Of a stretch of 41,794 bases of DNA, positions 16,109 through 41,794 are shown one piece after another (positions within the stretch are counted from its first letter, which is position 1; every line of letters begins with the position of its first letter). Below the pieces are notes generated by a model, which saw nothing but the letters and a program-made list of their open reading frames with translations, made no database searches and was not told where the DNA came from. The translations under genes and the position numbers were made by a program. Origin of the DNA: Candidatus Krumholzibacteriota bacterium (GTDB lineage Bacteria > Krumholzibacteriota > Krumholzibacteriia > JAJRXK01); assembly GCA_029262065.1 (NCBI GenBank), contig JAJDAC010000010.1:1-41794 (forward strand). The letters are read 5' to 3'.

Positions 16109-16155
16109 GCCTCGGATGGGTCCAGATCGGGGTTGGACTTGCTGGTTACCGGCAC

Positions 16156-16269
16156 GAAGAAGCCCCCCGGTTGTTCTTCCGGGGGGCTTGTTCTCACGAG
16201 CTAGGGGAGCGAAGAAGCCCCCCGGTTGTTCTTCCGGGGGGCTTGTTCTCACGAGCTACCGGGGGGCTA
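16156..16269. repeat. Tandem hairpin-repeat array 1 (terminator-like), downstream of the 2275-aa gene
   Basis: Two 49-bp copies with a 55-bp period (16156 and 16211) each contain AAGCCCCCCGG, an 8-nt loop and CCGGGGGGCTT. Stems are 16160-16170 with 16179-16189, and 16215-16225 with 16234-16244. A third half-unit, CCGGGGGGCTA (16259-16269), includes the stop codon of the giant gene. On the minus strand each stem is followed by CTTCG/CTTCT, so these can act as intrinsic terminators for the giant gene. The same repeat recurs at 24066-24277. Confidence 0.85.
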
Positions 16270-19200
16270 TTTCACCAGCGTCATTCGCTTCGACTGTTCG
16301 AACGAATCGCTGACCACGCGGTAGTAGTACACCCCGGTCGAGACCTGGCGTCCCCCACGGTCCGTACCGTCCCACACGTAGCTGTGGCGGCCGGCCGGGA
16401 GCTTCCCGTCAACCAACGTTCTCACCAGGCGTCCGGCCACGTCGTAGATACGTAGGCTGGTCGGCGCACCCTGCTTCAGGCTGAACGAGATGGTCGTTCT
16501 TGGGTTGAACGGGTTCGGCCGATTCTGCTCGAGAGTGTATTGCTCGCGCACCGGGATTTCGGGAGCCGAAGTTGGTGCCAACTCCAGGATCTCGATGCCT
16601 TTGATGGCCGGATTCTCGACGTTGTGGCCAAAATCGATCACGAGGTCACCGTCGGTGACACTCACCATGAACGACTCCATGACGCCGGCGGCACCGCCGA
16701 CGGCAGCGAACACGTCGTAGTCATCGAGCACGAGGTTGCCCTCGATCGAAACGTCAAACAGACGCGCTCCAACCGCCTGGGTGCCGGTGAAGATGTCGGC
16801 GAAGTACAGGCGTACCTCGAACGTTCCCGACGTAGTCGGGGCGATCGGGAACGTGTACTGCATCTCTGGCACAGCCGTGTCGTCGTAGCGTTCCGTCTTG
16901 AACAACTCGACCGGTGTCGTAGCCGGAATCGACGGGTCGCTCATGTCGATGGTGTCGCCAGTCGAACTTCCCGCCGCCGTCGAGTAGACGGTATTGCTGC
17001 CGGCCGTGAAGTAAGGCGAGGGAGCGGCCAACGTGTCCGCACTCCAGTTGGGCCCCGCATCGATGGCCGTGAGTTCGGCGCCACCCGCGTTTACGCGATA
17101 CAACCACGAGGGATCGGTCCCACCGGTGCCCTCGCCGGTCAGTGCGACCAGCAGCGGTGGTGTAAGGCCGTTGTGGGATACGCTCAGACTGGCACTCTTG
17201 GGCCCATTGAATACCGGATCAAAAGTCACGTTGAAGACCGTCTGGGTCCCCGGCGTGAGTACGATAGGCCCGGCGAAGTCGGTACTGAATTCGGCGGCGT
17301 TGGCGCCCACGACATCCACTGCATCGACTGTGATATCGGGGCTACCCACCAGACCCAGGTGGGTCAACGTAACCGCCTGGGCCGGCGTGGACCCCACGCC
17401 CACCGAACCGAAAGCCACTGGATCGGGGGCGGCTCCAAGCGCAGGAAGAGCGACGGGGTCGAACTCGTGGACCCACGTATCCGAGTTGGAGCCCGTAGCG
17501 CCGTCCGCGTCGGTGAACGCGGCGGTGATGTAGTTGAAGCCACCCTCGAGCTGGCTGTCGGTCAGCACCACCGGAATGTCCACGGTACCGCCGGCGCCCA
17601 CGGTCGCGGTGTATTCGGTGATGACCACGGCCTCGTTGGCTTCGAACGGATCGAGGTCAAAGCCGCCACCCGGTGCTCCCGCCGTCAGGAGGGCTGCCTC
17701 CACCACCGTCAGGCGCACGTCGGCACCGATCGGCCCGGTGATCTGAACGGTCTGGTTCGCATCGGCGAGAACGCTGGGATTCGTGGCCCCCAGGACCGCG
17801 ATACCCGGAGCTGCCGGAAGACCCGCACGCACGATAGCCTGCGAGCCACTCTCTGAGCCGGCGATGGCGAACGTCTCGGCCACCAGCGCTCCGGCCAGGT
17901 CGAAGGTCACAGTTACCGTGGCCCCTGCCAATTCAAACCCGGAAACCGAGCCGGAACTTCCCGTTCCGGGCGCTCCCTGGATACTCGTGGGGTCGATGTC
18001 GACCGAGAACGTGAACGTCTCGCCGGCTGCGAAGTCGGTGAAGGCCAGGTCGACGGCGTCGTAACCCAGGTCGTGCGGTAGATCAAATGGATCAACACAC
18101 GGATCGACGGGAGTCACAAAGCCCGTCGCGATCGAACCGCTGTCAGGCGTCAGGCACTTGCCCAACACATCACCAGCGTCGCCAACCGGATCGAACACCA
18201 TGTCCGGCAGACTGGCCGTGGACAGATCCAGACGAACACCGACGATATTGCTACCGTCCGTGGACTGATTGGTGATCTGTAGCGATCCCGCGGTGAAGGT
18301 ACTCGTAGTGATGTTGCCCGTGGGCGTGATCTGGATGAGGGCCTGGGCGTCGGTTGCCGCGGTCAAGTCGACGATCTCGATTCCCTTGATCGCCGGATTC
18401 TCGGCGACATGAACGAAATCGATATCGAGGTTGTTGTCGGCCGGGGTCACGGAGAATGCTTTCATGACCCCGGTGTCCGCGCCTACGTCCGAAAAGACGT
18501 CGTAGTCCTGAAGAACGATCCCACCTTCAACGAAAACGCTGAATAGCCGGAAAGCAGGCGACTGCGCGCCGGGGAAGATCTCCGCGAAGAAGAGGCGCAC
18601 CTCGTAGTCGTTGCCGGCGGTGACCGGGAAGTCCCACTGCAACTCTTCGGCGGTAGCCAATTGGTCGTAGCGCTCGGTCGTGAACAGAGCGCTCGGCACG
18701 CTGGCCGGCACCGACGGGTCAAGCGTGATGGGAACCACGTTGGTGTAGATCTGGTTTCCAGTGTCGGTCGCATTGACGTAGGTCGACGGCGAAGCCGCGC
18801 TATCCACGCTCCAGTCAGGAGCACTGGCATCGGCCGCAACGAGCTGGGGACCGCCCGCGTTCACGCGATAGATCGAAACTCCGGGAATGGTCTCTTCGTA
18901 TTCAACCACCACCGTCGGTGAAACGAAACCGTCACCGCTGGGACCTTCGAATGTCGCGGCAAGGTAGTTCAACCCACCATCGGCGTTGGTGTTGGTCAAC
19001 ACGATGGGTACGTCGGCCGTGCCGGTCCCGTCGAGTACGATCCCGCCGAGCGGCTCCACGACGAGGGCTGCGTTCGCTTCGAAGGGATCGATGTTGACCC
19101 CACCCCCGGCTTGCTCGAAAAGCGCAGCTTCCACGCGCACCAACTTGGCCGTGGATCCCGGGGGACCGGTGATGCGAGCTACCTGATTGGCGGTGCCCAC

Positions 19201-22200
19201 CAGGGTTGGCGTGCTCACGTTGAGCAGCTCAAGGCCCGGCGCCGGCGGCCCATCACTGGAGATGGTCGCGAACGATCCGCCGTCGCTGCCATCGGCAAAC
19301 AACTGACCAATCAACGTGGAGCCGTCACTGAAATCGAGCGTAACCGTGGAACCAGACAGTTCCAGACCCGAGATGGCCGCCGTATCGTTCGGGCCGGGAG
19401 AAGGCGTTCCTTCGATGCTCGTAGGATCCACGTCGATCGAGAATTCAATGGATTCGCCCGGCGCGAAACCGTCGGCGTTCACTTGCAGACCCTGGAACCC
19501 GCCGGTCCCCATTGGCAAGCTGTGACTGGACGTGACGTTGGAAACCCCCGCCGTACTGACGTCGAGCGTAAATGGTTTGGCCGAAGTGTCCCCCGCGGTT
19601 CCGTTGGGATCGAATACCAGATCGGGAAGCAATGCGGTGCTCAAGTCGAGTGTCATCGACGTCAAGGTCACGGCCGAAGGCAGCGAGGTGTTGACGAGAA
19701 TGAATGAACTCGTACCCGCGGTCGAAGCGTCCAGGATCTCGCCTGGCGTGACGGCGAAGGTCGCGCTGTTGTCGCTGGGCACGAAGCTGGTCTCCAGGAA
19801 ATCCCACGTGGCCCCGAACGGGGTACCAGAGCCGAACGACGTGGAAATCAGGCCCAGAGCCAGTCCTTGGTTGTCGAGCGGGTCCAGCCAGGTCGACGGA
19901 ATGGTCACCGGAGCACCCAGGTCGGTGATGTTGGCCCCACCATCGATCGATACCTGCGGCTGCACGGTACTTGCCGCCGGGTCCACGACGAAGTAGAGCT
20001 CCACCCCGCTTGAACTCAGGAGGTCACCCGTGGTGCCGGTGCCGTAGGTCGTATTGCTGGTCACCGCACCGGCATCTTCCAGCAGGACCTGGATCCCACT
20101 GAGCCCGCCGTTCGCGCTCATGACGATCTTCAGGTAGCTGTCCTGATCTCCAGTTCCCAGGTACAGCCCGTACGACTGGAAGTTGATTGGGGTACTGGGA
20201 CTGCCGCCCACCTCGAAGAATGGTGGCTCGAGCTGGGTGTGCACAACGAAAGCTGGCGTACTGGTATCGGCATCGATACCCATCTGGAAAGCATACTCCT
20301 GCGTGTTGTTTGCGTTGATTGCATCACCCGCCGGAACCTGCTCGACCGTGAACAGCCCCGAGGCACCTCCGGCGGCCATATTGGTTTCGTCGAACAACGT
20401 CAGGTAGTCCGTGCCGTTGTTCATCAATCCGGTAAAGCCCATGCCAAAGAAGCCGGTGCCCGGGTCCTGATTGAAGAAGCTATAGCTGAAGGGAATCGAG
20501 GTAGTCGTGCCGTTATTCGGATCCCACGCGAACATGTCGTTCACGTCCAGGATGCCATCGTTGTCATCGTCGTCGTCGAGCAGGTCGGACACGAAGTCGC
20601 CGTCGTTGTCGTCGGGTTGGCTACCACCGCTACACGGGTCAGTGCCGTTGGCGATCTCATCGGCGTTCGTGTAGCCGTCGTTGTCCTCGTCGAGTAAAGG
20701 ATCGTTGGTTCCCGTACAGGGCGCGCCTCCACCCACGGGCTCAAAGATGGTGATATTGTCCGCGCCGTAGGTAGCGGCCCAGATCGATCCCGGGAAGATG
20801 TCACCATCGCCCTGGGCAATCACGTCGAGCGGTTGCGAACCGAAACCGCTGAACAGCGCCTCCTGCTCCACCACCGTGTCGCCCGCCCCGTTCAGGGCAA
20901 AACGATAGATGTTGCCGTTGAACGATGCGGCCAGGATGTTGCCCTGCAACTGTCCAGAAAAGTTCGAGGCGGTATACTCGTCGATGCCGTTGGTCGAGGC
21001 ACTGATCACGGCGAGCGAGCCGTCTTCCACACCGGGAATCTGGTAGTCGCCCTCGATCGCATTGGCCGCTGCGAACGGCACCGGGGGCACCGGGAAATCA
21101 ACGGCCCAATCGTACGTATTGATGAGGGTCCAATTACCGCCGACCTTCTCGTACTCGTAGAGATCGGAAAATTCTGGGTTGGCACGCGTCGGATTCGGAT
21201 GACCGCCGTAGTAGCCGGGACCGCTCACGAAGTGCAACCCGTCACCGTAGCCCGTGCTGCCGTTCTCGTTGGTCTGGTTGGTAACGTTGGCTGTGCCCTC
21301 GTTGATGGGGATACCGCCCCAGCCGCTGTTCGGGCCATTGTCGAACGTGTAGATACGACCATTCTGGGTACGCACCGCGTCGTAGGCGTTGCGAAAGCCC
21401 GGAGAATAGACCTGCACGGGCCCCGTCAGGTCCCAGATGGCCTGGTTCAGACCGTTGTTGCCGCCGAACGGATCGCCGGGATCGGCAAGACCGGGCGTGC
21501 CGCGCGAAGGGTCGTCCAGGGTCGGTAGGTCGTATAGGTAGTCGTTGCCGTTGCCATCGACCAGGATGGGCAAGGCTTCGAGCGTCGTCAGGTCAACCGA
21601 CAACAACGCCGCCGACAGAGCGTACTCCGGCGTCTGGGAAAAGTTGTTTCCGGGCGCACCCTTGTTGGTGTGACCGCCCTGGATGAGGTACAGCGTATTG
21701 GAGGTAGTGTCGATCTCGATGCCGTTGCTGGAATGGTTTTCTTCTGAGCGGGGCAAACCACGAACCATCTGAACGTGGTCCCAGGCCGAACCGTTCCAGG
21801 TGAGGCGCGAAAGAATACCACTGTTGGTATCCAGGCCGGTGTCATTGTCCACGGAAATGCGCGGGTCCGACGATGTTACGTAGACCACGGGATTGGACGC
21901 GGTGCCCGCGGTGGCAAGCCCGGTTACCTGGCGGTTGCCCTGACCGCTGGCCGTACCATCGTCGTTGTGATTGGGGATGTTCTGGATCGTGTTGATCGTC
22001 TCGGTAGCCGTGGCGACATAGGACACCGAGCCGGTATCCTGACGCTCGATGGTGTAGGCAACGATGAGCCCGTTCTGCTGCGAAACATATAGCCGGTCGT
22101 CAGGACCGAATTCGAGCGACGTGGGGTTGTTCAGACTCTCACCGCTGAGCCCGTACTGATCGAACGCCACCGGCGCCGCCCCCGGATCGAAGCCCTCTCC

Positions 22201-23094
22201 GTTCAGATTGACGGTCAGCGGAGAGTTGCTGCCGTCGTGGGTAATGGTCAGCGTCTCGGATACCTGTCCGGCCGTCAGCGGGCTGAAGGTCACGTCGAAA
22301 TTGACCGAGCCGCCGGGCGCGATCGACGGCGTGCCCAGCGTGTGACTGAAGTCGCCGCTGGTCACCGCACTCAAGATGTTGATTGTTTGATCACCAGGAT
22401 CACCAAGGTTGTTCAGCGTGACATTCTGTGGTGCCGAACTGGTGGCCGTTTCAAGAAGGCCGAACGAGAGTCCCGTGGGCGACGGACTCAGGAATCCGTT
22501 GGTGTCGGCCGCGAGAATCTCTATGGCGTTGATCAGCGTGTTCTCGACGCCGTGGATGAACGTGATGTCCAGGTTCGCATCGCTCGCCACCACGAAAGGA
22601 AGCATGATCGCGTTCAGGTGACCGTATTGGCCCGAGAGGTCCAACCCGCTCACCACGGTGTTGCCTTCGATCTGAATATCAAATACGCGTTGTCCGGCCG
22701 CGCTGGTTCCACCGAATCCGTTCTTCATGTACAGACGGACTTCGTAGCTTCCCGTCGCTCCCACGGGGAACGTCCAGGTCATTTCAGGCGCTCCAGCGGG
22801 GTCCCAGCGCTCGGTATCGTATAGCGTGGGCGGCGCGCCCGCGGGTACCGAGGGGTCGATCGTTCCACCAGGGAAACCGTTCAGGTTGCTACCCGAATTG
22901 TGATACGTCGATGGCACGGCGGCCGAGTCTTCGTCCCAATCAGGTCCTGCATCGATCGAAGTGAGCTGGCCACCGCCGGCATTCACCCGAAACAGAACTG
23001 TTTGCGCCAACGCTTGCGGGGCCAGCGCGGCCAAGCAGGTAGCAACAAGAAATACGACCATCAACAGTCGGGGCAAGGTGTTCACTAAGCGCAT
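16267..23094 (-). CDS. Giant secreted malectin / sugar-dehydrogenase propeller surface protein (2275 aa)
   Basis: It starts at an ATG with AGGAAGAA eight bases upstream and a signal peptide (about 1-30). Domains in order: malectin 1 (31-195, VLFRVNAGGGQLTSIDAGPDW), Ig-like choice-of-anchor-D domain (about 196-303), and a GSDH-like propeller (about 310-790). Asp-rich thrombospondin-3-type calcium repeats follow (about 795-860), then a beta-rich lectin-like domain (about 860-1130). After a long repeat module come malectin 2 (about 1405-1568), a second copy of the module (about 1578-1881), an Ig-like domain (about 1885-1988) and malectin 3 (about 1995-2168). A PNPFNPRTTI-type sorting domain ends in MTLVK (about 2185-2275). 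Malectin domains bind di- or oligosaccharides, so a glycan-binding, calcium-stabilised cell-surface role is likely. A close paralogue lies upstream at 25719-31646. Confidence 0.88.
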   Translation of the reverse strand: MRLVNTLPRLLMVVFLVATCLAALAPQALAQTVLFRVNAGGGQLTSIDAGPDWDEDSAAVPSTYHNSGSNLNGFPGGTIDPSVPAGAPPTLYDTERWDPAGAPEMTWTFPVGATGSYEVRLYMKNGFGGTSAAGQRVFDIQIEGNTVVSGLDLSGQYGHLNAIMLPFVVASDANLDITFIHGVENTLINAIEILAADTNGFLSPSPTGLSFGLLETATSSAPQNVTLNNLGDPGDQTINILSAVTSGDFSHTLGTPSIAPGGSVNFDVTFSPLTAGQVSETLTITHDGSNSPLTVNLNGEGFDPGAAPVAFDQYGLSGESLNNPTSLEFGPDDRLYVSQQNGLIVAYTIERQDTGSVSYVATATETINTIQNIPNHNDDGTASGQGNRQVTGLATAGTASNPVVYVTSSDPRISVDNDTGLDTNSGILSRLTWNGSAWDHVQMVRGLPRSEENHSSNGIEIDTTSNTLYLIQGGHTNKGAPGNNFSQTPEYALSAALLSVDLTTLEALPILVDGNGNDYLYDLPTLDDPSRGTPGLADPGDPFGGNNGLNQAIWDLTGPVQVYSPGFRNAYDAVRTQNGRIYTFDNGPNSGWGGIPINEGTANVTNQTNENGSTGYGDGLHFVSGPGYYGGHPNPTRANPEFSDLYEYEKVGGNWTLINTYDWAVDFPVPPVPFAAANAIEGDYQIPGVEDGSLAVISASTNGIDEYTASNFSGQLQGNILAASFNGNIYRFALNGAGDTVVEQEALFSGFGSQPLDVIAQGDGDIFPGSIWAATYGADNITIFEPVGGGAPCTGTNDPLLDEDNDGYTNADEIANGTDPCSGGSQPDDNDGDFVSDLLDDDDDNDGILDVNDMFAWDPNNGTTTSIPFSYSFFNQDPGTGFFGMGFTGLMNNGTDYLTLFDETNMAAGGASGLFTVEQVPAGDAINANNTQEYAFQMGIDADTSTPAFVVHTQLEPPFFEVGGSPSTPINFQSYGLYLGTGDQDSYLKIVMSANGGLSGIQVLLEDAGAVTSNTTYGTGTTGDLLSSSGVELYFVVDPAASTVQPQVSIDGGANITDLGAPVTIPSTWLDPLDNQGLALGLISTSFGSGTPFGATWDFLETSFVPSDNSATFAVTPGEILDASTAGTSSFILVNTSLPSAVTLTSMTLDLSTALLPDLVFDPNGTAGDTSAKPFTLDVSTAGVSNVTSSHSLPMGTGGFQGLQVNADGFAPGESIEFSIDVDPTSIEGTPSPGPNDTAAISGLELSGSTVTLDFSDGSTLIGQLFADGSDGGSFATISSDGPPAPGLELLNVSTPTLVGTANQVARITGPPGSTAKLVRVEAALFEQAGGGVNIDPFEANAALVVEPLGGIVLDGTGTADVPIVLTNTNADGGLNYLAATFEGPSGDGFVSPTVVVEYEETIPGVSIYRVNAGGPQLVAADASAPDWSVDSAASPSTYVNATDTGNQIYTNVVPITLDPSVPASVPSALFTTERYDQLATAEELQWDFPVTAGNDYEVRLFFAEIFPGAQSPAFRLFSVFVEGGIVLQDYDVFSDVGADTGVMKAFSVTPADNNLDIDFVHVAENPAIKGIEIVDLTAATDAQALIQITPTGNITTSTFTAGSLQITNQSTDGSNIVGVRLDLSTASLPDMVFDPVGDAGDVLGKCLTPDSGSIATGFVTPVDPCVDPFDLPHDLGYDAVDLAFTDFAAGETFTFSVDIDPTSIQGAPGTGSSGSVSGFELAGATVTVTFDLAGALVAETFAIAGSESGSQAIVRAGLPAAPGIAVLGATNPSVLADANQTVQITGPIGADVRLTVVEAALLTAGAPGGGFDLDPFEANEAVVITEYTATVGAGGTVDIPVVLTDSQLEGGFNYITAAFTDADGATGSNSDTWVHEFDPVALPALGAAPDPVAFGSVGVGSTPAQAVTLTHLGLVGSPDITVDAVDVVGANAAEFSTDFAGPIVLTPGTQTVFNVTFDPVFNGPKSASLSVSHNGLTPPLLVALTGEGTGGTDPSWLYRVNAGGAELTAIDAGPNWSADTLAAPSPYFTAGSNTVYSTAAGSSTGDTIDMSDPSIPATTPVELFKTERYDDTAVPEMQYTFPIAPTTSGTFEVRLYFADIFTGTQAVGARLFDVSIEGNLVLDDYDVFAAVGGAAGVMESFMVSVTDGDLVIDFGHNVENPAIKGIEILELAPTSAPEIPVREQYTLEQNRPNPFNPRTTISFSLKQGAPTSLRIYDVAGRLVRTLVDGKLPAGRHSYVWDGTDRGGRQVSTGVYYYRVVSDSFEQSKRMTLVK

Positions 23095-24065: not shown

Positions 24066-24277
24066 GATTGTTGCTCCCAAGGGGGATTGTTCTCACGAGC
24101 TTGGGAGTGAAGAAGCCCCCCGGTTGCTCTTTCCGGGGGGGTTGTTCTCGACGAGCTTGGGAGTGAAGAAGCCCCCCGGTTGCTCTTTTCCGGGGAGCTT
24201 GCTTTCACGAGCTTGGGAGTGAAGAAGCCCCCCGGTTGCTCTTCCGGGGGGCTTGTTCTCACGAGTTCCGGGGGGCT
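24066..24277. repeat. Tandem hairpin-repeat array 2, between the small malectin gene and the IS
   Basis: Three units with a 56-bp period start at 24109, 24165 and 24221. Each contains GAAGCCCCCCGG, a short TTGCTCTT-type loop and a CCGGGG arm. A degenerate unit precedes them (about 24066-24100), and a terminal half-unit CCGGGGGGCT (24268-24277) is cut by the insertion sequence. The second and first full units have imperfect right arms, so the copies are diverging. The array originally followed the stop codon of the giant gene now ending at 25719, exactly as array 1 follows its paralogue. The rest of the gap 23894-24065 shows no gene. Confidence 0.85.
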
Positions 24278-24283
24278 AGACCC

Positions 24284-24297
24284 TATGGAACGGCTGG
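24284..24297 (+). repeat. IS subterminal inverted repeat, left
   Basis: TATGGAACGGCTGG, exact inverse of 25705-25718. The same sequence occurs in the second IS copy at the right end of the window. Confidence 0.9.
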
Positions 24298-24300
24298 ACC

Positions 24301-24367
24301 CCCGTGATGATCGCGGGTTGGATAGGTGTTAACCGAAAATCCAGAGCCGCAAGCGACACGTAGTCGC
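24301..24367 (+). promoter_or_regulatory. Two conserved hairpins in the IS left leader
   Basis: CCCGTG (24301-24306) pairs with CGCGGG (24312-24317) using one G-U pair, and GCGAC (24353-24357) pairs with GTCGC (24363-24367). The second IS copy keeps both, and in it the first stem is fully Watson-Crick (T to C change). This supports a structured leader RNA or DNA hairpins at the left end, just upstream of the transposase ribosome site GGAGG (24378-24382). Confidence 0.6.
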
Positions 24368-24389
24368 TGCATTCTACGGAGGTCCAACC

Positions 24390-25490
24390 ATGCAAGATTC
24401 TACCATCTGGGTCGGTCTCGACGTGCACAAGGATTCCATCACTGCCGCGATTCTCAAGGACGGCGATTCCCACGCCGAGGTCATTCGAATGTCGAGTGAT
24501 CTCAACAAAGTCCGACGACTGTTCCGGCGACTCTCGGTCGACGGTCCAATCCGTTCGTGCTACGAGGCTTCGGGATCTGGATTCGTTCTCCACCGGGCGC
24601 TCACCGACCACGGGTACTCGTGCGAGGTGGTTGCCCCGTCGTTGATTCCGCGCAAGCCCGGCGACCGTCGAAAGACCGACAAGATCGACGCGATCCAACT
24701 TGCGAAACTCCTGCGCAGCGGTCACCTCACCCCGGTCGAGATCCCCAGCGAAGAGCAGGAGGCCGTGCGCGGGATCGTTCGCTATCGCGCCGTTCTCAAG
24801 CAGGAAGCCAAGCGCGCGAAGCATCGAATCTGTGGCTTTCTGCTACGGCAAGGGCTCACGTTTGATGGCAGCAAATCCAACTGGACCAAGAAACACCGCA
24901 TCTGGATTGCGCAAATGCGGCGTGAGCTCGAAGGTCCCGCGCAGCTGTGTCTGTCGATGGAGCTCGAGCACCTGGAATATCTGGAGAGTCAGCTCAATTC
25001 ACTCGACACGGAGATCGAACGGGAGTCCAGGTGCGAGCCGTACCGAAAAACCGTCGAGGCCCTGCAATGTTTGCGTGGAGTGAAAACCCTAACCGCGATG
25101 ACACTCGCCACGGAGATCGGCGACATCGCCCGTTTTCGATCTCCGCGTGCGCTGATGGCTTGGGTAGGCCTGGTGCCCAGCGAGCGATCTTCGGGTGATC
25201 GCGAACGAAGAGGGCCAATTACCAAGGCCGGAAACAGCGAGGTGCGTCGCGTCCTCATTGAGGCGGGTTGGAACAATCGACATCAGGGAGGTGCTGATCT
25301 GGTCCTCAAACGAAGGCGCCAGGGCCAGGATCCAGCGGCCGTGGCCATCGCCGTGAAAGCACAGCATCGGCTCTCGAAAAAGTTTCGACGACTATGGGAA
25401 CGTAAACATCCCAACGTCGCCGTGGTCGCAGTGGCCCGTGAACTCACCGGTTTCGTCTGGGCCATCATGAACACCGCGCCCCAGCAGTAG
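24390..25490 (+). CDS. IS110/IS1111-family transposase (DEDD, RuvC-like plus Tnp_20)
   Basis: The 366-aa protein has the N-terminal RuvC-like DEDD domain (DEDD_Tnp_IS110): GLDVHKDS carries the first Asp, SCYEASGSG the Glu, and KTDKIDA the two Asp residues. A helical linker (about 125-220) and the C-terminal Tnp_20 domain follow, with LRGVKTLTAMTLATEIGDI and the SSGDRERRGPITKAGN motif holding the catalytic Ser. The ATG has GGAGG seven bases upstream. All key residues are present, so it is probably active. Members of this family work with a guide RNA encoded in a non-coding end of the element. Confidence 0.96.
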   Translation: MQDSTIWVGLDVHKDSITAAILKDGDSHAEVIRMSSDLNKVRRLFRRLSVDGPIRSCYEASGSGFVLHRALTDHGYSCEVVAPSLIPRKPGDRRKTDKIDAIQLAKLLRSGHLTPVEIPSEEQEAVRGIVRYRAVLKQEAKRAKHRICGFLLRQGLTFDGSKSNWTKKHRIWIAQMRRELEGPAQLCLSMELEHLEYLESQLNSLDTEIERESRCEPYRKTVEALQCLRGVKTLTAMTLATEIGDIARFRSPRALMAWVGLVPSERSSGDRERRGPITKAGNSEVRRVLIEAGWNNRHQGGADLVLKRRRQGQDPAAVAIAVKAQHRLSKKFRRLWERKHPNVAVVAVARELTGFVWAIMNTAPQQ

Positions 25491-25704
25491 CTGAGGCGCG
25501 GCCAAGAAAAGTCCGAGAGGAAAGGTTTCGGCAGGGGAATCCTCGTTTGAAGTATGCGGCACGAGCTGTGCTCCAACCCGCGTCATCCTAGTGTGAGGCA
25601 GCCCCAGACGGACCTTTCGGGAATGCGGTTTCGACCCGCGGATATCAGTCTGAAGATCGTCGAGAAATCCCTTTCCTCTCGGACATCTATCGAAGCGGTT
25701 GACA
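25491..25704 (+). ncRNA. Candidate IS guide RNA (bridge/seek RNA) region
   Basis: The 214 bases between the transposase stop and the right inverted repeat contain no gene, far more than the left leader (111 bp). In IS1111-type elements the guide RNA is encoded in this position, downstream of the transposase. AGCCCC (25600-25605) is complementary to the left target flank GGGGCT and GAAAT (25664-25668) to the right flank ATTTC. These matches are too short to be proof. RNA boundaries and loops are not resolved here. Confidence 0.6.
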
Positions 25705-25718
25705 CCAGCCGTTCCATA
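25705..25718 (-). repeat. IS subterminal inverted repeat, right
   Basis: CCAGCCGTTCCATA, inverse of the left copy at 24284-24297. It ends one base before the stop codon of the adjacent giant gene. Confidence 0.9.
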
Positions 25719-28700
25719 TCATTTCACCAGGGCCATCCTTCTTGTCTGCTCAAATGACTCACTCTTGAGTCGGTAGTAGTACACACCGGTGGAAACCCGG
25801 TGGCCTCCCTGATCCGTACCGTTCCAAACGAAACTGTGACGCCCGGCCGGCAAGCGGCCATCGACCAGCGAAGTGACCAGGCGGCCCGCCACGTCATAGA
25901 TACGCAGGCTCGCGGGCGCGTCATGTTCCAACGTGAACGAGATCGTCGTCCTCGGATTGAACGGATTGGGCCGGTTCTGCTCCAACGCGTAGCTCGTTCG
26001 CGAGGGCGTCGGCGCGCCGGTCGCAATGAGTTCCAGGATCTCGATACCCTTGATCGCGGGATTCTGCGTGTTGTGCCCGAAGTCGATCACCAGGTCAGCA
26101 TCGGCCACGTTCACGACGAACGAGCGCATCATGCCCGCGGCGCCGCCCACTTCGGCAAACACATCGAAGTCATCAAGCACCAAGGCACCTTCGATCGTTA
26201 CATCGAAAAGACGCAGGCCCGCACCTTGGGTGCCCGTGAAGATGTCGGCAAAGTACAACCGCACCTCGAACGTACCCGAGGTGGTGGGCGCGATCGGGAA
26301 AGTGTATTGCATGTCCGGAACCGGCGCGGTGTCGTATCGCTCGGTGCGGAACAGATCCACGGGTGCCGTCAACGGAAGCGACGAGTCGCTCATGTCGATG
26401 GTATTTCCCGTCGACTGCGCGTCTGCTGTCGTAAAGACCGTATTGCTCCCCGCCGTGAGATATGTCGACGGGGCCGCAACGGAGTCTTCACTCCAATTGG
26501 GGCCAGCGTCGATGGCGAGTACCTCAGGACCACCGGTATTCACACGATACAGCCAGAGCGGGTCGGCTCCTCCAATCGCTTCGCCCGCCAACGCGATTGA
26601 CGTGGGCGAACCCAGTCCGTTGTGCGAAACGTTCACGGTGGCTTGCTTTACGCCGTTGAACAGAGCATTGAACGAGACGTTCAGGACAAGCTGCTCGCCC
26701 GCGCCCAGCACCACCGGACCGGAAAAATCGGCAGCGAACTCGGTGGCGTTGGGACCGACCATCGTCACCGCGTCCACCGTGATTTCGTCGCTGCCCGGCA
26801 ACCCCTGATGAGTCAGAACGACTACCTGGGACGGTGAACCGCCGACCGGGACCTGCCCAAACATCAGCGAATCAGGCACTGCGCCCAATTGGGGTTGCGG
26901 ATGCGCAACCGGTGAAACGTCGATGATTTCGATTCCCTTGATTGCCGGGTTCGATGCCACGTGCACGAAATCGATATCCAGATTGTTGTCGGTGGGCGTC
27001 ACCAGGAATGACGTCATGATTCCCGTATCCGCACCGGCATTGGAAAACACGTCGTAGTCCTGCAACACAATGCCCTGCTCTATGAACACGCTGAACAACC
27101 GACCCGAAGGCGTTTGTGCCAAAGGAAGAATCTCGGCGAAGTACAGGCGCACTTCGTATTCTTCATTGGCCACCACGGGAAAGTCCCAGCGCAACTCTTC
27201 GGCCGTCAACAATTCGTCGAAGCGCTCGGTGATGAAGAGATCGGCGGGCACGCTGGCCGGGACCGATGGATCGAGCGTGATGGGGACGTTCTTGGTAAAG
27301 ACCGTGTTGTTGGTCTCGACCCAGTTCACATAGGAAGACGGATTGGCTCGACTGTCTTCGCCCCAGTCGGGCGCGCTCGCGTCGGCCGCAACCAGCTGCG
27401 GACCACCCGCGTTGATGCGATACAGGGACACCGGAGGCAGCGGGGGCACGTACTGGGCCACTACGGTTGGCGAAACGAATCCGTCACCGCCGGGCCCAAC
27501 CAATGTGGCACGAAGATGATTGATGCCGCCGACCGGGTCGGAGTTGGTCAAGACCACCGGAACGTCAGCCGTCCCCGTACCATCGAGCACGATTCCGGTG
27601 ATGGTCTCCACTCCAATGGCCGCGTTCGCTTCGAACGGGTCAATTCCGACGCCCCCACCCAACGGCTCGAAAAGGCCGGCTTCCACCCGCAACAACTTCG
27701 CGGTTGCTCCGGGAGGTCCCGTAATCCGAGCGGTCTGATTTTCCACGCCAACCTGGACCGGCGCGATCACGTTCAAGAGTTCCAGCCCAGGCGCCGTGAG
27801 CGCGGCGTTGTCCAAGGTAGCGAAACTTCCGCCGTCCGTCCCATCTCCGAAGAGTTGGCCAGTTACGATGGAGCTGTCGTCGAAGTTCAAGGTGATGGTG
27901 GCTCCCACCAACTCGAGACCAGAAACCCCACCAGCTCCATTCGGCCCGGGCGACACTTCGCCCTCGATACTCGTAGGGTCAACGTCGATCGAAAAGTCGG
28001 CAAACTCGCCGGCTCCGAAGTCACCGAAGTTGATCTGCAGCTGCTGAAAACCACCGTTCCCAAACGGCTGGCTCAACGAATGCGTAACCGCGCCAATTCC
28101 CGGCGAGCTCGCATCGAGCGTGAAGTCCTTGGCCAGGTCATCACCGGCGGTACCGCTGGGATCGAACACCATGTCGGGTAGCAAAGCCGTACTGAGGTCT
28201 ATGACCATGGACGTAAGGTTCACCGCCGGAACCGCGGGCGAGGTGTTGATCACCTGAATCGCGCTGGTTCCCGACACAGACGCGCCAACTGCTCCGGCGG
28301 CGGTTACCGCCACCGTCGCACTGTTGTTCGACGGCACGAAGCCTGTCTCCAGGAAGTCCCAGGTTGCGCCGAACGGCGTTCCCGAGCCAAAAGACGTGGA
28401 AATGAGCCCCAAGGCCAGGCCCTGGTTGTCGGCCGGATTCAGCCAGGCGCTCGGTATGGAAATGGGGCTTCCGAGGTCAATGATGGTCGCACCCGAATTC
28501 GTCGAAACCTGCGGTTGCACCGTGCTGCTGGCCGGGTCCACGACGAAGTACAACTCCACCGCACTCGAGCCCAACAGATCGCCGGTGACTCCGGTACCGT
28601 AGGTGGTCCCCGAAGACGCTCCTCCGTCTTCCAGCAAGACCTGGATACCGCTGGCCCCGCCATTGGCATTCAGGACGATCTTCAGATAGTTGTCCTGGTC

Positions 28701-31646
28701 ACCAGTACCAAGGTACAAGCCGTACGACTGGAAATCGATTGGCGTGGTCGGACTACCGCCAACCTGGAAAAATGGCGGCTCCAGCTGCGTATGCACGAAG
28801 AACGCCGGCGTCGACGTGTCGACATCGATGCCCAATTGGAACGCGTATTCCTGGGTGTTCGTGGCGTTGATGGCATCACCCGAGGGTACCAGTTCAACCG
28901 TGAAAAGACCGGACGCGCCACCGGCCGCCAGGTTCGTCTCGTCGTACTGGGTAAGATAGTCGGCGCCATTGTTCATGAGCCCCGTGAAGCCCATGCCGAA
29001 GAATCCTGTCCCCGGGTCCTGATTGAAGAAGCTGTAGTTGAAAGGCACCGCGGTGGTGGTTCCGTTGTCGGGGTCCCATGCGAACATATCGTTCACATCG
29101 AGAATCCCGTCGTTGTCGTCATCGTCGTCGATGAGATCGGAAGTGAAATCCAGATCGTTGTCGCTAGGCTGACTGCCACCGCTACAGGGATCGGTGCCGT
29201 TGGCGATTTCATCGGCGTTGTCGTAGCCGTCGTTGTCTTCGTCGAGGAACGGATCGTCGGCACCCGTACAGGTCGTGCCCAGGTCGATGGGCTCGAACAC
29301 GGTGATGTTGTTTGACCCGTAGGTAGCCACCCAAACCGTGCCGGGAAACACGTCGCCGTCACCCTGCGCGGTCACATCTAGCGGCTGGGTTCCGAAACCA
29401 CTGAACTGGATCTCCTGCTCCAGTACGGTGTCACCGGCACCGTTCAGCGCGAAACGATAGACATTGTTGTTGAAGGCGGCCGCCAGAAGATGACCCTGGA
29501 TCTGGCCGCCAAAATTGGATGCCGTGTACTCGGTGATTCCGTTCGTCGAGGCGGAGATGACGGCCAGGGCCCCGTCCTCGGTGGGCGGCACCAGAAAGTC
29601 GCCCTCGATCGGATTGGCCGCGGCGAAAGGCACCGGCGGAACAGGAAAGTCCAGCGCCCAGTCGTAGGTGTTGATGAGCGTCCAGGTGCCGCCGATCTTC
29701 TCGTACTCGTAGAGGTCGGAGAATTCGGGGTTGGCGCGCGTGGGGTTGGGATGCCCGCCGTAGTAACCGGGACCGCTGATGAAGTGCAGCTGGTCGCCGT
29801 AGCCAGTGCTGCCGTTCTCGTTGGTCGCGTTGTTCACGTTGGCGGTTCCCTCGTTGATGGGAAGTCCGCCCCAACCCGAGTTGGGACCGTTGTCGAATGT
29901 GTAGAGCCGCCCGTTCTGCGTTCGCACCACGTCGTAGGCGTTGCGGAAACCCGGCGAATAGACCTGAACAGGACCGGTGAGATCCCAGATGGCCTGGTTC
30001 AACCCGTTGTTGCCACCGAACGGATCGCCCGGATCGGGTTGGCCAGGGGTGCCTCGCGTGGGGTCGTCCAACGTGGGTAGGTCGTAGACGTAGTCGTTTC
30101 CGTTGCCGTCGGTAAGAATTGGCATGGCTTCGAGCATCGTCAGATCCACCGACAACAACGCCGCCGACAGCGCAAACTCGGGAGTCTGCGAAAAGTTGTT
30201 ACCCGGCGCGCCCTTGTTGGTATGCCCGCCTTGAATCAGGAACAGCGTGTTCGTGTTGGGGTCGTGGTCCATGCCATTGCTGGCGTGGTTCTCTTCCGAC
30301 CGCGGCAAACCGCGAACCAATTGGACGTGGTCCCAGCTTGCACCGTTCCACGTGAGCCGGGAGATGATCCCACTATTGGTGTCCAGCCCCAGATCGTTGT
30401 CCACCGAGATGCGTGGGTCCGATGACGAGACATAGAGAACGGGATTCGCGGCCGTGCCCAATACCATGAGGCCCGTCACCTGCCGGTTGGCTTGAAAGCT
30501 ATCGGCTCCGTCATCGTCGTGATTGGGAATGTTCTGCACCAGATCAATGTACTCGGATCCGATGACCACGTAGGACACCGACCCCGAGTCCTGTCGATCC
30601 ACGGTATACACCAGGATCCCACCGTTCTGCTGCGAAACGTAGAGACGTCCGTCGGGCCCAAACTGCAACGACGTGGGATTGTTGAGGCTTTCGCCCTGCA
30701 GGTTGTACTGGTCGAAAGAAACGGGAGCCGCTCCGGGGTCGTACGCATCGCCAGACACACCAATGACCACGGGAGAATTGCTTCCGTCGTGGGTAATGGT
30801 GATGGTTTCGGCCACCAACCCCGCTGAGAGCGGGTTGAAGGTCACGTCGAAGTCCACCGAGCCGCCTGGCGCAATGGCGGGAGTACCAAGCGTGTGAGAA
30901 AAGTCGCCGGTGGCGACCACACCGGTGATGTTGACCGTCTGGTCGCCGGGCTCACCCAGGTTGCTCAGGGTGATGGTCTGGGGCGCGGAACTGGTAAACG
31001 CTTCGATCAAGCCAAACGACAAACCACCCGGCGAAGGCGACAGGAAGCCGTTCGTATCCACGGTCAGAATCTCGATTGCGTTGACCAGCGGATTTTCGAT
31101 GTTGTGCAAGAACGTGATGTCGAGGTTCGCATCGCTGGCCACGACGATCGACTGCATGAACCCAACCTGGTGACCAAATTGACCGGATAGGTCGAGGTCG
31201 GTCAGGACCGTGTTGCCCTCGATGGAAACGCTGAATACGCGGGCACCTCCCGAACTGGTTCCGCTGTACCCGTTCTTGAAATAGAGGCGCACTTCGTAGT
31301 TTGCCGACGCCGCCACGGGAAAGGTCCACTGCATCTCGGGCGATCCCGAAGGATCCCAGCGCTCGCTATCGAAGATCTCAGGCGGCGTGCTCGCCGGCAC
31401 GGTGGGATCGATGGACCCGCCCGTGAAGCCGGCGCCCGTACTGCCGCTGTTGCGATACGGTGACGGCGACGCGTCGGTGTCGACTTCCCAATCGATCCCG
31501 GCGTCGATAGCGGTGACTGCGGCGCCGCCAGCGTTCACACGAAACAATACGCTCTGGGCTGCGGCGGGAAGCGGAAGGATCAGAATCGAGAGAAGAACCA
31601 GGCCGACGGCAGTGAGGCCGCCAAGGTGACGGGATAGCGAGCGCAT
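25719..31646 (-). CDS. Giant secreted malectin / sugar-dehydrogenase propeller surface protein, paralogue (1975 aa)
   Basis: The ATG at 31646 is chosen; a TTG three bases upstream is closer to the AGGGGA site and cannot be excluded. The protein has a signal peptide, malectin 1, an Ig-like domain, a GSDH-like propeller, calcium-binding Asp-rich repeats (DEDNDGYDNADEIANGTDPC) and a lectin-like domain. Malectin 2 (about 1402-1582), an Ig-like domain (about 1589-1692), malectin 3 (about 1695-1872) and a PNPFNPRTTI-type sorting domain ending in MALVK follow. It matches the 2275-aa protein nearly throughout but lacks one module of about 300 residues after malectin 2. The stop TGA (25721-25719) is formed at the IS junction; the paralogue uses TAG at the same place. 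Coding capacity appears intact. Confidence 0.88.
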   Translation of the reverse strand: MRSLSRHLGGLTAVGLVLLSILILPLPAAAQSVLFRVNAGGAAVTAIDAGIDWEVDTDASPSPYRNSGSTGAGFTGGSIDPTVPASTPPEIFDSERWDPSGSPEMQWTFPVAASANYEVRLYFKNGYSGTSSGGARVFSVSIEGNTVLTDLDLSGQFGHQVGFMQSIVVASDANLDITFLHNIENPLVNAIEILTVDTNGFLSPSPGGLSFGLIEAFTSSAPQTITLSNLGEPGDQTVNITGVVATGDFSHTLGTPAIAPGGSVDFDVTFNPLSAGLVAETITITHDGSNSPVVIGVSGDAYDPGAAPVSFDQYNLQGESLNNPTSLQFGPDGRLYVSQQNGGILVYTVDRQDSGSVSYVVIGSEYIDLVQNIPNHDDDGADSFQANRQVTGLMVLGTAANPVLYVSSSDPRISVDNDLGLDTNSGIISRLTWNGASWDHVQLVRGLPRSEENHASNGMDHDPNTNTLFLIQGGHTNKGAPGNNFSQTPEFALSAALLSVDLTMLEAMPILTDGNGNDYVYDLPTLDDPTRGTPGQPDPGDPFGGNNGLNQAIWDLTGPVQVYSPGFRNAYDVVRTQNGRLYTFDNGPNSGWGGLPINEGTANVNNATNENGSTGYGDQLHFISGPGYYGGHPNPTRANPEFSDLYEYEKIGGTWTLINTYDWALDFPVPPVPFAAANPIEGDFLVPPTEDGALAVISASTNGITEYTASNFGGQIQGHLLAAAFNNNVYRFALNGAGDTVLEQEIQFSGFGTQPLDVTAQGDGDVFPGTVWVATYGSNNITVFEPIDLGTTCTGADDPFLDEDNDGYDNADEIANGTDPCSGGSQPSDNDLDFTSDLIDDDDDNDGILDVNDMFAWDPDNGTTTAVPFNYSFFNQDPGTGFFGMGFTGLMNNGADYLTQYDETNLAAGGASGLFTVELVPSGDAINATNTQEYAFQLGIDVDTSTPAFFVHTQLEPPFFQVGGSPTTPIDFQSYGLYLGTGDQDNYLKIVLNANGGASGIQVLLEDGGASSGTTYGTGVTGDLLGSSAVELYFVVDPASSTVQPQVSTNSGATIIDLGSPISIPSAWLNPADNQGLALGLISTSFGSGTPFGATWDFLETGFVPSNNSATVAVTAAGAVGASVSGTSAIQVINTSPAVPAVNLTSMVIDLSTALLPDMVFDPSGTAGDDLAKDFTLDASSPGIGAVTHSLSQPFGNGGFQQLQINFGDFGAGEFADFSIDVDPTSIEGEVSPGPNGAGGVSGLELVGATITLNFDDSSIVTGQLFGDGTDGGSFATLDNAALTAPGLELLNVIAPVQVGVENQTARITGPPGATAKLLRVEAGLFEPLGGGVGIDPFEANAAIGVETITGIVLDGTGTADVPVVLTNSDPVGGINHLRATLVGPGGDGFVSPTVVAQYVPPLPPVSLYRINAGGPQLVAADASAPDWGEDSRANPSSYVNWVETNNTVFTKNVPITLDPSVPASVPADLFITERFDELLTAEELRWDFPVVANEEYEVRLYFAEILPLAQTPSGRLFSVFIEQGIVLQDYDVFSNAGADTGIMTSFLVTPTDNNLDIDFVHVASNPAIKGIEIIDVSPVAHPQPQLGAVPDSLMFGQVPVGGSPSQVVVLTHQGLPGSDEITVDAVTMVGPNATEFAADFSGPVVLGAGEQLVLNVSFNALFNGVKQATVNVSHNGLGSPTSIALAGEAIGGADPLWLYRVNTGGPEVLAIDAGPNWSEDSVAAPSTYLTAGSNTVFTTADAQSTGNTIDMSDSSLPLTAPVDLFRTERYDTAPVPDMQYTFPIAPTTSGTFEVRLYFADIFTGTQGAGLRLFDVTIEGALVLDDFDVFAEVGGAAGMMRSFVVNVADADLVIDFGHNTQNPAIKGIEILELIATGAPTPSRTSYALEQNRPNPFNPRTTISFTLEHDAPASLRIYDVAGRLVTSLVDGRLPAGRHSFVWNGTDQGGHRVSTGVYYYRLKSESFEQTRRMALVK

Positions 31647-31713
31647 CAAGATGTGTTCCCCTGGATGGTGTCGGATAGGCAGTCAGGAGGGCCGACCAGG
31701 CGGCTTTCCGTGA

Positions 31714-41655: not shown

Positions 41656-41794
41656 AGACCCTATGGAACGGCTGGACCCCCGCGATGATCGCGGGTTGGA
41701 TAGAGGTGTTAACCGAACATCCAGAGCCGCAGGCGACACGTAGTCGCTTGAACTTACGGAGGTCCAACCATGCAGAATTCTACCATTTGGGTCG
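41656..41794 (+). mobile_element. IS1111-like insertion sequence, second diverged copy (left end only)
   Basis: The left end matches the first IS: CTAGACCCTATGGAACGG, the same inverted repeat (TATGGAACGGCTGG) and both leader hairpins (41679-41695 and 41733-41747). About ten differences, including a 2-nt insertion (GGATAGA), show it is a diverged copy rather than a recent duplicate. It runs off the right edge; orientation is the same as the first copy. The flank before it is CGACCCTA, with no hairpin repeat. Confidence 0.9.
41770..41794 (+). CDS. IS110/IS1111 transposase, N-terminal fragment cut by window edge
   Basis: The ATG follows GGAGG at the same spacing as in the first copy and encodes MQNSTIWV, matching MQDSTIWV of the complete transposase. 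Only eight codons are in the window. Confidence 0.85.

Follow-up and report, generated by a model that had tools for sequence, protein, structure and literature searches.

In the 41,794-nucleotide contig JAJDAC010000010.1 of a Candidatus Krumholzibacteriota bacterium (assembly GCA_029262065.1; this entire stretch is referred to as the window), an IS1111-type insertion sequence (IS) is located precisely at the stop codon of a gene that encodes a giant protein with a FlgD-like C-terminal tail. This raised the question of whether the element had reached the gene end by chance or had been aimed at it. On the evidence of sequence comparisons, the second answer is very probably correct: the element appears to carry its own seekRNA, programmed with the conserved 3′ end of tail genes, and it would insert directly after the final Lys codon, ahead of the stop codon, while supplying a stop codon of its own.

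An insertion sequence at the end of a giant gene

The features of the locus are as follows.
24279..25721, forward strand: IS1111-type insertion sequence, 1,443 bp, with ends placed by comparison with the paralog and with genomic junctions (5 left, 6 right)
24284..24297, forward strand: left sub-terminal inverted repeat TATGGAACGGCTGG, 14/14 complementary to the right repeat
25705..25718, forward strand: right sub-terminal inverted repeat CCAGCCGTTCCATA, the perfect 14-bp partner of the left repeat
24390..25490, forward strand: DEDD transposase, 366 aa (PF01548, PF02371; NF033542, IS110 family RNA-guided transposase, 259 bits)
25719..31649, reverse strand: host gene for a 1,976-aa protein with malectin and ASH/choice-of-anchor D domains and a C-terminal FlgD-like/type IX secretion system (T9SS)-type tail
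25719..25721, reverse strand: in-frame stop codon TGA supplied by the IS, read from the junction
24276..24278, reverse strand: former stop codon TAG, now separated from the gene by the IS, from comparison with the paralog
16267..23094, reverse strand: paralogous gene with the uninterrupted target (empty site), from alignment with the joined flanks

The transposase domains and the perfect sub-terminal repeats identify the element as IS1111 type, as had been claimed in the initial annotation of this region. An exact insertion at a stop codon, with the paralogous locus as the empty site, had also been proposed, and both points were borne out: the left flank CCGGGGGGCTA (last base 24278) and the right flank TTTCACCAG (first base 25722) join to give CCGGGGGGCTATTTCACCAG, a string that is present uninterrupted at 16259-16278 of the paralog (20 nt exact across the junction by blastn), and 266/355 aligned columns are identical between the joined flanks and the paralog region. 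Because the joined flanks equal the paralog sequence, a target duplication is absent. The edge of the IS is ambiguous by one base, an A common to both sides, and the span becomes 24279-25719 if the final CA is counted as recombination core. On the gene strand, the host protein ends in ...RRMALVK followed by the IS-made TGA, and the proposed exchange of TAG for an IS-derived TGA was thereby confirmed. The transposase contains the GL-P----S(T)G motif as GLVPSERSSG. The noncoding end is longer downstream (229 nt, 25491-25719) than upstream (111 nt, 24279-24389), and the extensions that flank the 12-bp inner part of the repeats are asymmetric, with GACCCTA (7 bp) on the left and TAT (3 bp) on the right.

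Copies of the element in the source genome

When the IS was used as a query against the assembly (5.77 Mb in 59 contigs), further copies were retrieved, nearly all of them broken at contig ends, including one in the window itself.
41657..41794, forward strand: left end of a further IS copy, cut by the contig end, with a left flank that is again CTA
The window is a whole contig, and several contig ends of the assembly fall within IS copies. The copies placed the ends identically, in agreement with the boundaries first proposed (5 left and 6 right junctions, one of the latter being a 28-bp relic). All six right junctions (on contigs C10, C55, C43, C11 and C30 and the relic on C15) follow the Lys codon of a tail gene and read ...[L/V]K-TGA-TATGGAACGG or a one-base variant thereof; each of the five full right ends is situated 3′ of a gene among the FlgD_ig matches listed. 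At the five left junctions (two on C10 and one each on C47, C24, and C36), CTA or TTA, the reverse complement of TAG or TAA, directly precedes GACCC. No IS110-type transposase was found in this genome other than the IS itself and a fragment on C55.

The flanks of these copies bear on the possibility that the hairpin or terminator repeats beside the gene are the target, as repetitive extragenic palindromic (REP) sequences or attC sites are for other IS1111/IS110 elements. A GC-rich hairpin array does adjoin the target at the window locus. The alignment of other copies that had been suggested for finding a common core and hairpin yielded a common coding end and core; beyond the stop triplet, however, the other four copies have dissimilar left flanks. 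The conserved part is the right, coding end, which the guide described below also matches. The hairpin array was rejected as the IS target on account of these unlike left flanks, and we regard such targeting as highly improbable. Because the left flanks vary between copies beyond the stop triplet, the element, judged from the junctions, targets the gene end, a Lys codon with its stop, rather than the hairpin.

The array itself has the following position.
24081..24265, no strand assigned: tandem hairpin array with a 56-bp unit, which adjoined the stop codon before insertion
Since the insertion, it lies 1.44 kb from the stop codon of the interrupted gene; the matching array of the paralog (55-bp unit) occupies 16155-16258. 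Each 55/56-bp unit holds a long GC hairpin (AAGCCCCCCGG...CCGGGGGGCTT) 3′ of the two paralogous giant genes. The units gave six matches within the window with both strands counted, where chance would give none, and the repeats are plausible transcription terminators.

The genome offers many gene ends of this kind. At least 150 FlgD_ig matches scored above the cut-off (150 of 300 candidates scored). Among 30 tails that were read, including two IS-bearing genes (L052 and L064; L numbers denote loci) and one that runs past the tail (L035), 14 end in Lys, and the stop codons are TAG in 15, TGA in 14, and TAA in 1; an example of a tail-gene end is GTGAAGTAG. The extended target pattern CTNSTSAARTAG occurs 32 times, which is not above the count for the reversed pattern (40). 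Of 30 sites inspected, 25 are at tail ends (one of these, L085, shows a partial tail only); target and tail therefore nearly coincide. The host-gene tails matched TIGR04183 with 28.1 and 26.3 bits (cut-off, 23) as well as PF13860. They are plausibly T9SS signals because SprA, the T9SS translocon, is present in the genome (507.7 bits).

Recurrence across the class

The survey of the class covered 80 genomes and combined transposase searches with a covariance model of the noncoding region; a phylum-level search returned the same 80 genomes. The covariance model gave 37 matches in 24/80 genomes, of which four (L104, L112, L126, and L131) lack a readable right end. Counting the copies of the source genome, 35 right junctions were readable in total. 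A tail hidden Markov model (HMM) was built from 27 tails of the source genome, with the two IS-bearing genes and L035, whose frame ran on, excluded. It matched at 20/24 right junctions of the element's subgroup, whose members share this type of repeat; each match ended exactly at the IS, and the other five frames gave no match. The 20 tail-stop junctions span 13 genomes, 11 genera, and 4 families, and in all of them the IS supplies a stop codon after Lys (TGA in 18, TAG in L017, and TAA in L108). Tail-stop junctions were found at 0/6 right ends of subgroup B (ends AGTCATATCA) and at 0/5 of subgroup C (ends CACTCCATATCA or similar). Four other tail insertions likewise have a stop complement as their left flank (TCA in L017 and L021, TTA in L025, and CTA in L026). 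L026 (Candidatus Krumholzibacteriota bacterium Dive96_bin2.115), identical in sequence to L032 (G070, of the window's class), was the one close relative among six loci returned by a scan of genome contigs. The first interpretation of the window locus was thus correct in its single-site facts and incomplete in scope: the stop-codon target recurs across the lineage and would be read by a predicted RNA guide.

Some junctions showed further particulars. The right flanks of L015 and L129 are alike (GGTGTCCTAAGTGTCTTTT and GGTATCTTAAGTCTCTTTT), a resemblance that the guide does not explain and that may reflect the joining of another mobile element. At the tail gene of L132, the right end of a subgroup B element adjoins the relic of a right end from the tail-targeting subgroup, one IS next to the remnant of another. 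L119 and L129 are very short (about 330 and 230 bp between repeats) and contain the seekRNA in the absence of a transposase; they resemble miniature inverted-repeat transposable elements and are possibly mobilized in trans.

A predicted seekRNA that spells the gene end

The downstream noncoding region contains the following predicted features.
25533..25662, forward strand: predicted seekRNA/bridge RNA with two stem-loops, from an alignment of 11 elements
25546..25554, forward strand: right target guide UUUGAAGUA, whose gene-sense reading is Leu-Lys-stop, pairing with the top strand (7/8 pairs with its own target)
25585..25590, forward strand: left target guide AUCCUA, which holds CUA, the reverse complement of TAG
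25641..25648, forward strand: donor guide GAUAUCAG, which matches the right IS end ATATCA plus the first IS base G

The covariance model matched the RNA of the element with an E value of 2.2e-27 (the element itself is part of the model), and Rfam gave no match for 24200-25800 at E values up to 1. In the 11 aligned noncoding regions, 98.9% of cells pair, compared to 93.2% in shuffles, and 6/24 pairs show double-sided changes, a value that was reached in 0/500 shuffles. The 5′ side of the first internal loop represents the gene end in gene sense, as UUGAAGUA (Leu-Lys-stop) in the window and as UUCAAGUG, CUAAAGUG, and CUUAAGUA in relatives. Its 3′ side is the stop complement CUA, replaced by UCA in L017 and L021 and by UUA in L025, and these three variants equal each element's own left flank. 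The second loop changes from AUAUCAG to AUACUAG in L017 and L024, whose right ends read CATACTA. The complement of the top strand precedes the bottom-strand match, which is the order in IS1111 seekRNAs.

Guide-target pairing was tested for 10 elements with guides anchored on the conserved UGCG; elements lacking the TGCG anchor (L022 and L033), a recognizable left flank (L019 and L023), or a right end (L018 and L020) were excluded, and loci added later by the covariance model were not part of the test. Guides formed 70/80 pairs with their own targets, compared to 56.5 after shuffling, and 20 of 100,000 shuffles scored as high. Two distant members have the target TAGCCCGG with the guide CCGGGCUA (L034) and the target TAGCCCGC with the guide GCGGGCUA (L065). 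The ends, target, recurrence, stop replacement, guide-target covariation, and RNA fold are direct readings of the sequences; from them we infer that the RNA would be made and guide transposition.

Several observations weigh against dedicated targeting. Four of the 24 junctions (L015, L016, L024, and L129) lie away from tail stops, the right flank of L015 misfits its own guide (3/8 pairs), and the guides of L021, L026, and L025 carry one mismatch each. The 20 junctions are not fully independent because members share ancestry. Most of the genomes are fragmented assemblies whose contigs break at IS copies, and many relatives are relics that lack a full transposase within the stretch retrieved. 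The guide spans only about 7 to 8 nt plus the stop triplet, and purifying selection against other insertions could therefore add to the tail-stop pattern. Taken further, this argument becomes one of survivorship, in which the element would insert at any short match of 8 to 10 nt and only copies at gene ends would survive, so that tail stops are no dedicated target. The short recognized sequence and the guide-matched insertions of L016 and L024 outside tails are consistent with this idea. However, intergenic space should be equally neutral, yet no right end of the source genome lies there, and most extended target sites inspected are tails. Moreover, the readable guides of other tail-inserted elements still encode a codon followed by Lys and stop (with one Lys-codon base changed in L025); these guides are not alike, with most of the variation in the position just ahead of the Lys codon, yet they spell the gene end. 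We therefore consider survivorship as the whole explanation unlikely.

Under the favored explanation of guided insertion, the seekRNA would be programmed with the Leu/Val-Lys-stop 3′ end shared by many FlgD-like/T9SS-type tail genes, and the transposase-seekRNA complex would insert the circular element between the final Lys codon and the stop codon. The old stop codon is displaced to the left side of the element, and the right IS end TCA (CTA or TTA in two tail insertions) reads as a stop codon on the gene strand; the putatively exported protein therefore keeps its exact C terminus. The host would thus supply many near-harmless sites in a multicopy protein-domain family, and we infer that insertion is nearly neutral.

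The supplied stop codon, terminators, and relic ends

The published 7/3-bp rule (Siddiquee et al. 2024, PMC11187229) assigns CA as donor core and TA as target core. TA is kept at 5/5 left junctions and CA at 6/6 right junctions of the source genome; donor and target cores therefore need not be identical. The new stop codon is TGA because the donor core CA, which differs from the target TA, is retained at the right junction.

Stop replacement might also be a coincidence of the IS end with no adaptive role, which would be compatible with guided targeting of tail stops. TCA also terminates subgroups B and C, neither of which targets these tails, and the stop may therefore be an exploited accident, a point that counts against the proposed strategy. 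However, the variant ends CTA and TTA in the tail-targeting subgroup are stops as well (L017 and L108; L024 has CTA and is not at a tail). Furthermore, in a scan with self-chosen thresholds and without a shuffled control, a terminator-like hairpin followed by a T-rich stretch was located on the gene strand just inside the right end in 7/14 foreign tail insertions (L021, L023, L026, L108, L111, L127, and L130). Such a hairpin is also present in L117 and L119; that of L120 scored on the other strand only, and that of L024 is weak. Coincidence is a serious candidate that we would put a little below even. Several tail insertions lack a full transposase in the stretch retrieved, and L013 of the source genome is reduced to 28 bp; IS ends can therefore persist as host stop codons.

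The right ends of L117 and L119 (subgroup C) adjoin protein ends reading FGTVKSLFR and WGSLKSLYR. A search for the pattern W-G-x-x-K-x-x-[YF]-R-stop found it in 69/78 genomes, whereas the reversed-pattern control gave 0 in every genome, which marks it as a conserved C-terminal motif at the level of sequence. The proteins adjoining L117 and L119 had no NCBIfam match, a search with a subgroup C model gave no further clear elements, and the left flank of L119, which is not a stop triplet, weighs against targeting of the motif. At L131, a seekRNA match and such an ending are about 350 bp apart, with no recognizable IS end. We tentatively suggest, at somewhat less than even odds, that IS1111 lineages of this phylum may have specialized on the 3′ ends of multicopy C-terminal signals (FlgD/T9SS tails and perhaps W-G-x-[ILV]-K-x-x-[YF]-R-stop for L117 and L119), with a compensating stop codon, in some cases a terminator for the host gene, and relic ends that become permanent gene endings.

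Relation to known systems

Integrative elements that use a site-specific integrase, usually at one locus, can repair the 3′ end of the tRNA gene or protein gene that they enter. The element described here is similar in that it inserts at a gene end and rebuilds that end; it differs in that many paralogous genes are used, apparently under RNA guidance, and that the stop codon alone is restored. Among related elements, IS4321 reportedly targets Tn21-type inverted repeats. The IS1111 seekRNA elements studied by Siddiquee et al. 2024 (PMC11187229) are ISEc11, ISKpn4, ISPst6, and ISPa11, and as their targets the portions of that article used here name attC sites, REP sequences, plus one short linear site, unlike the stop-codon end of a multicopy protein-tail family with an IS-supplied stop. 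Our element shares with them the DEDD transposase, perfect sub-terminal repeats, 7/3-bp extensions, lack of target duplication, long downstream noncoding region, and two-part guide with the top-strand complement first; its transposase has 366 aa, compared to a spread of 330 to 350 aa for IS1111 transposases (PMC11187229). As in the IS110/IS621 bridge RNA recombinases, to the extent covered by the sections of Durrant et al. 2024 (PMC11208160) drawn upon, a two-loop RNA pairs with target and donor, with a core dinucleotide per guide. In contrast to IS621, the guide is in the downstream end, and the cores are CA (donor) and TA (target), differing in the first base, whereas IS621 strongly prefers CT core pairing in both (PMC11208160). 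No description of an IS110/IS1111 element at the stop codons of such tails was found in the titles and abstracts searched, a scope that did not extend to preprints. The family is known, and the target strategy appears to be new.

If this explanation is true, a programmable RNA-guided transposon would persist by aiming at a protein motif that is conserved in scores to hundreds of genes and would neutralize its own damage by carrying a stop codon. The natural guide-target pairs of this IS1111 lineage, including the mismatch between donor and target cores, would directly serve tests of the rules that govern programmable recombination.

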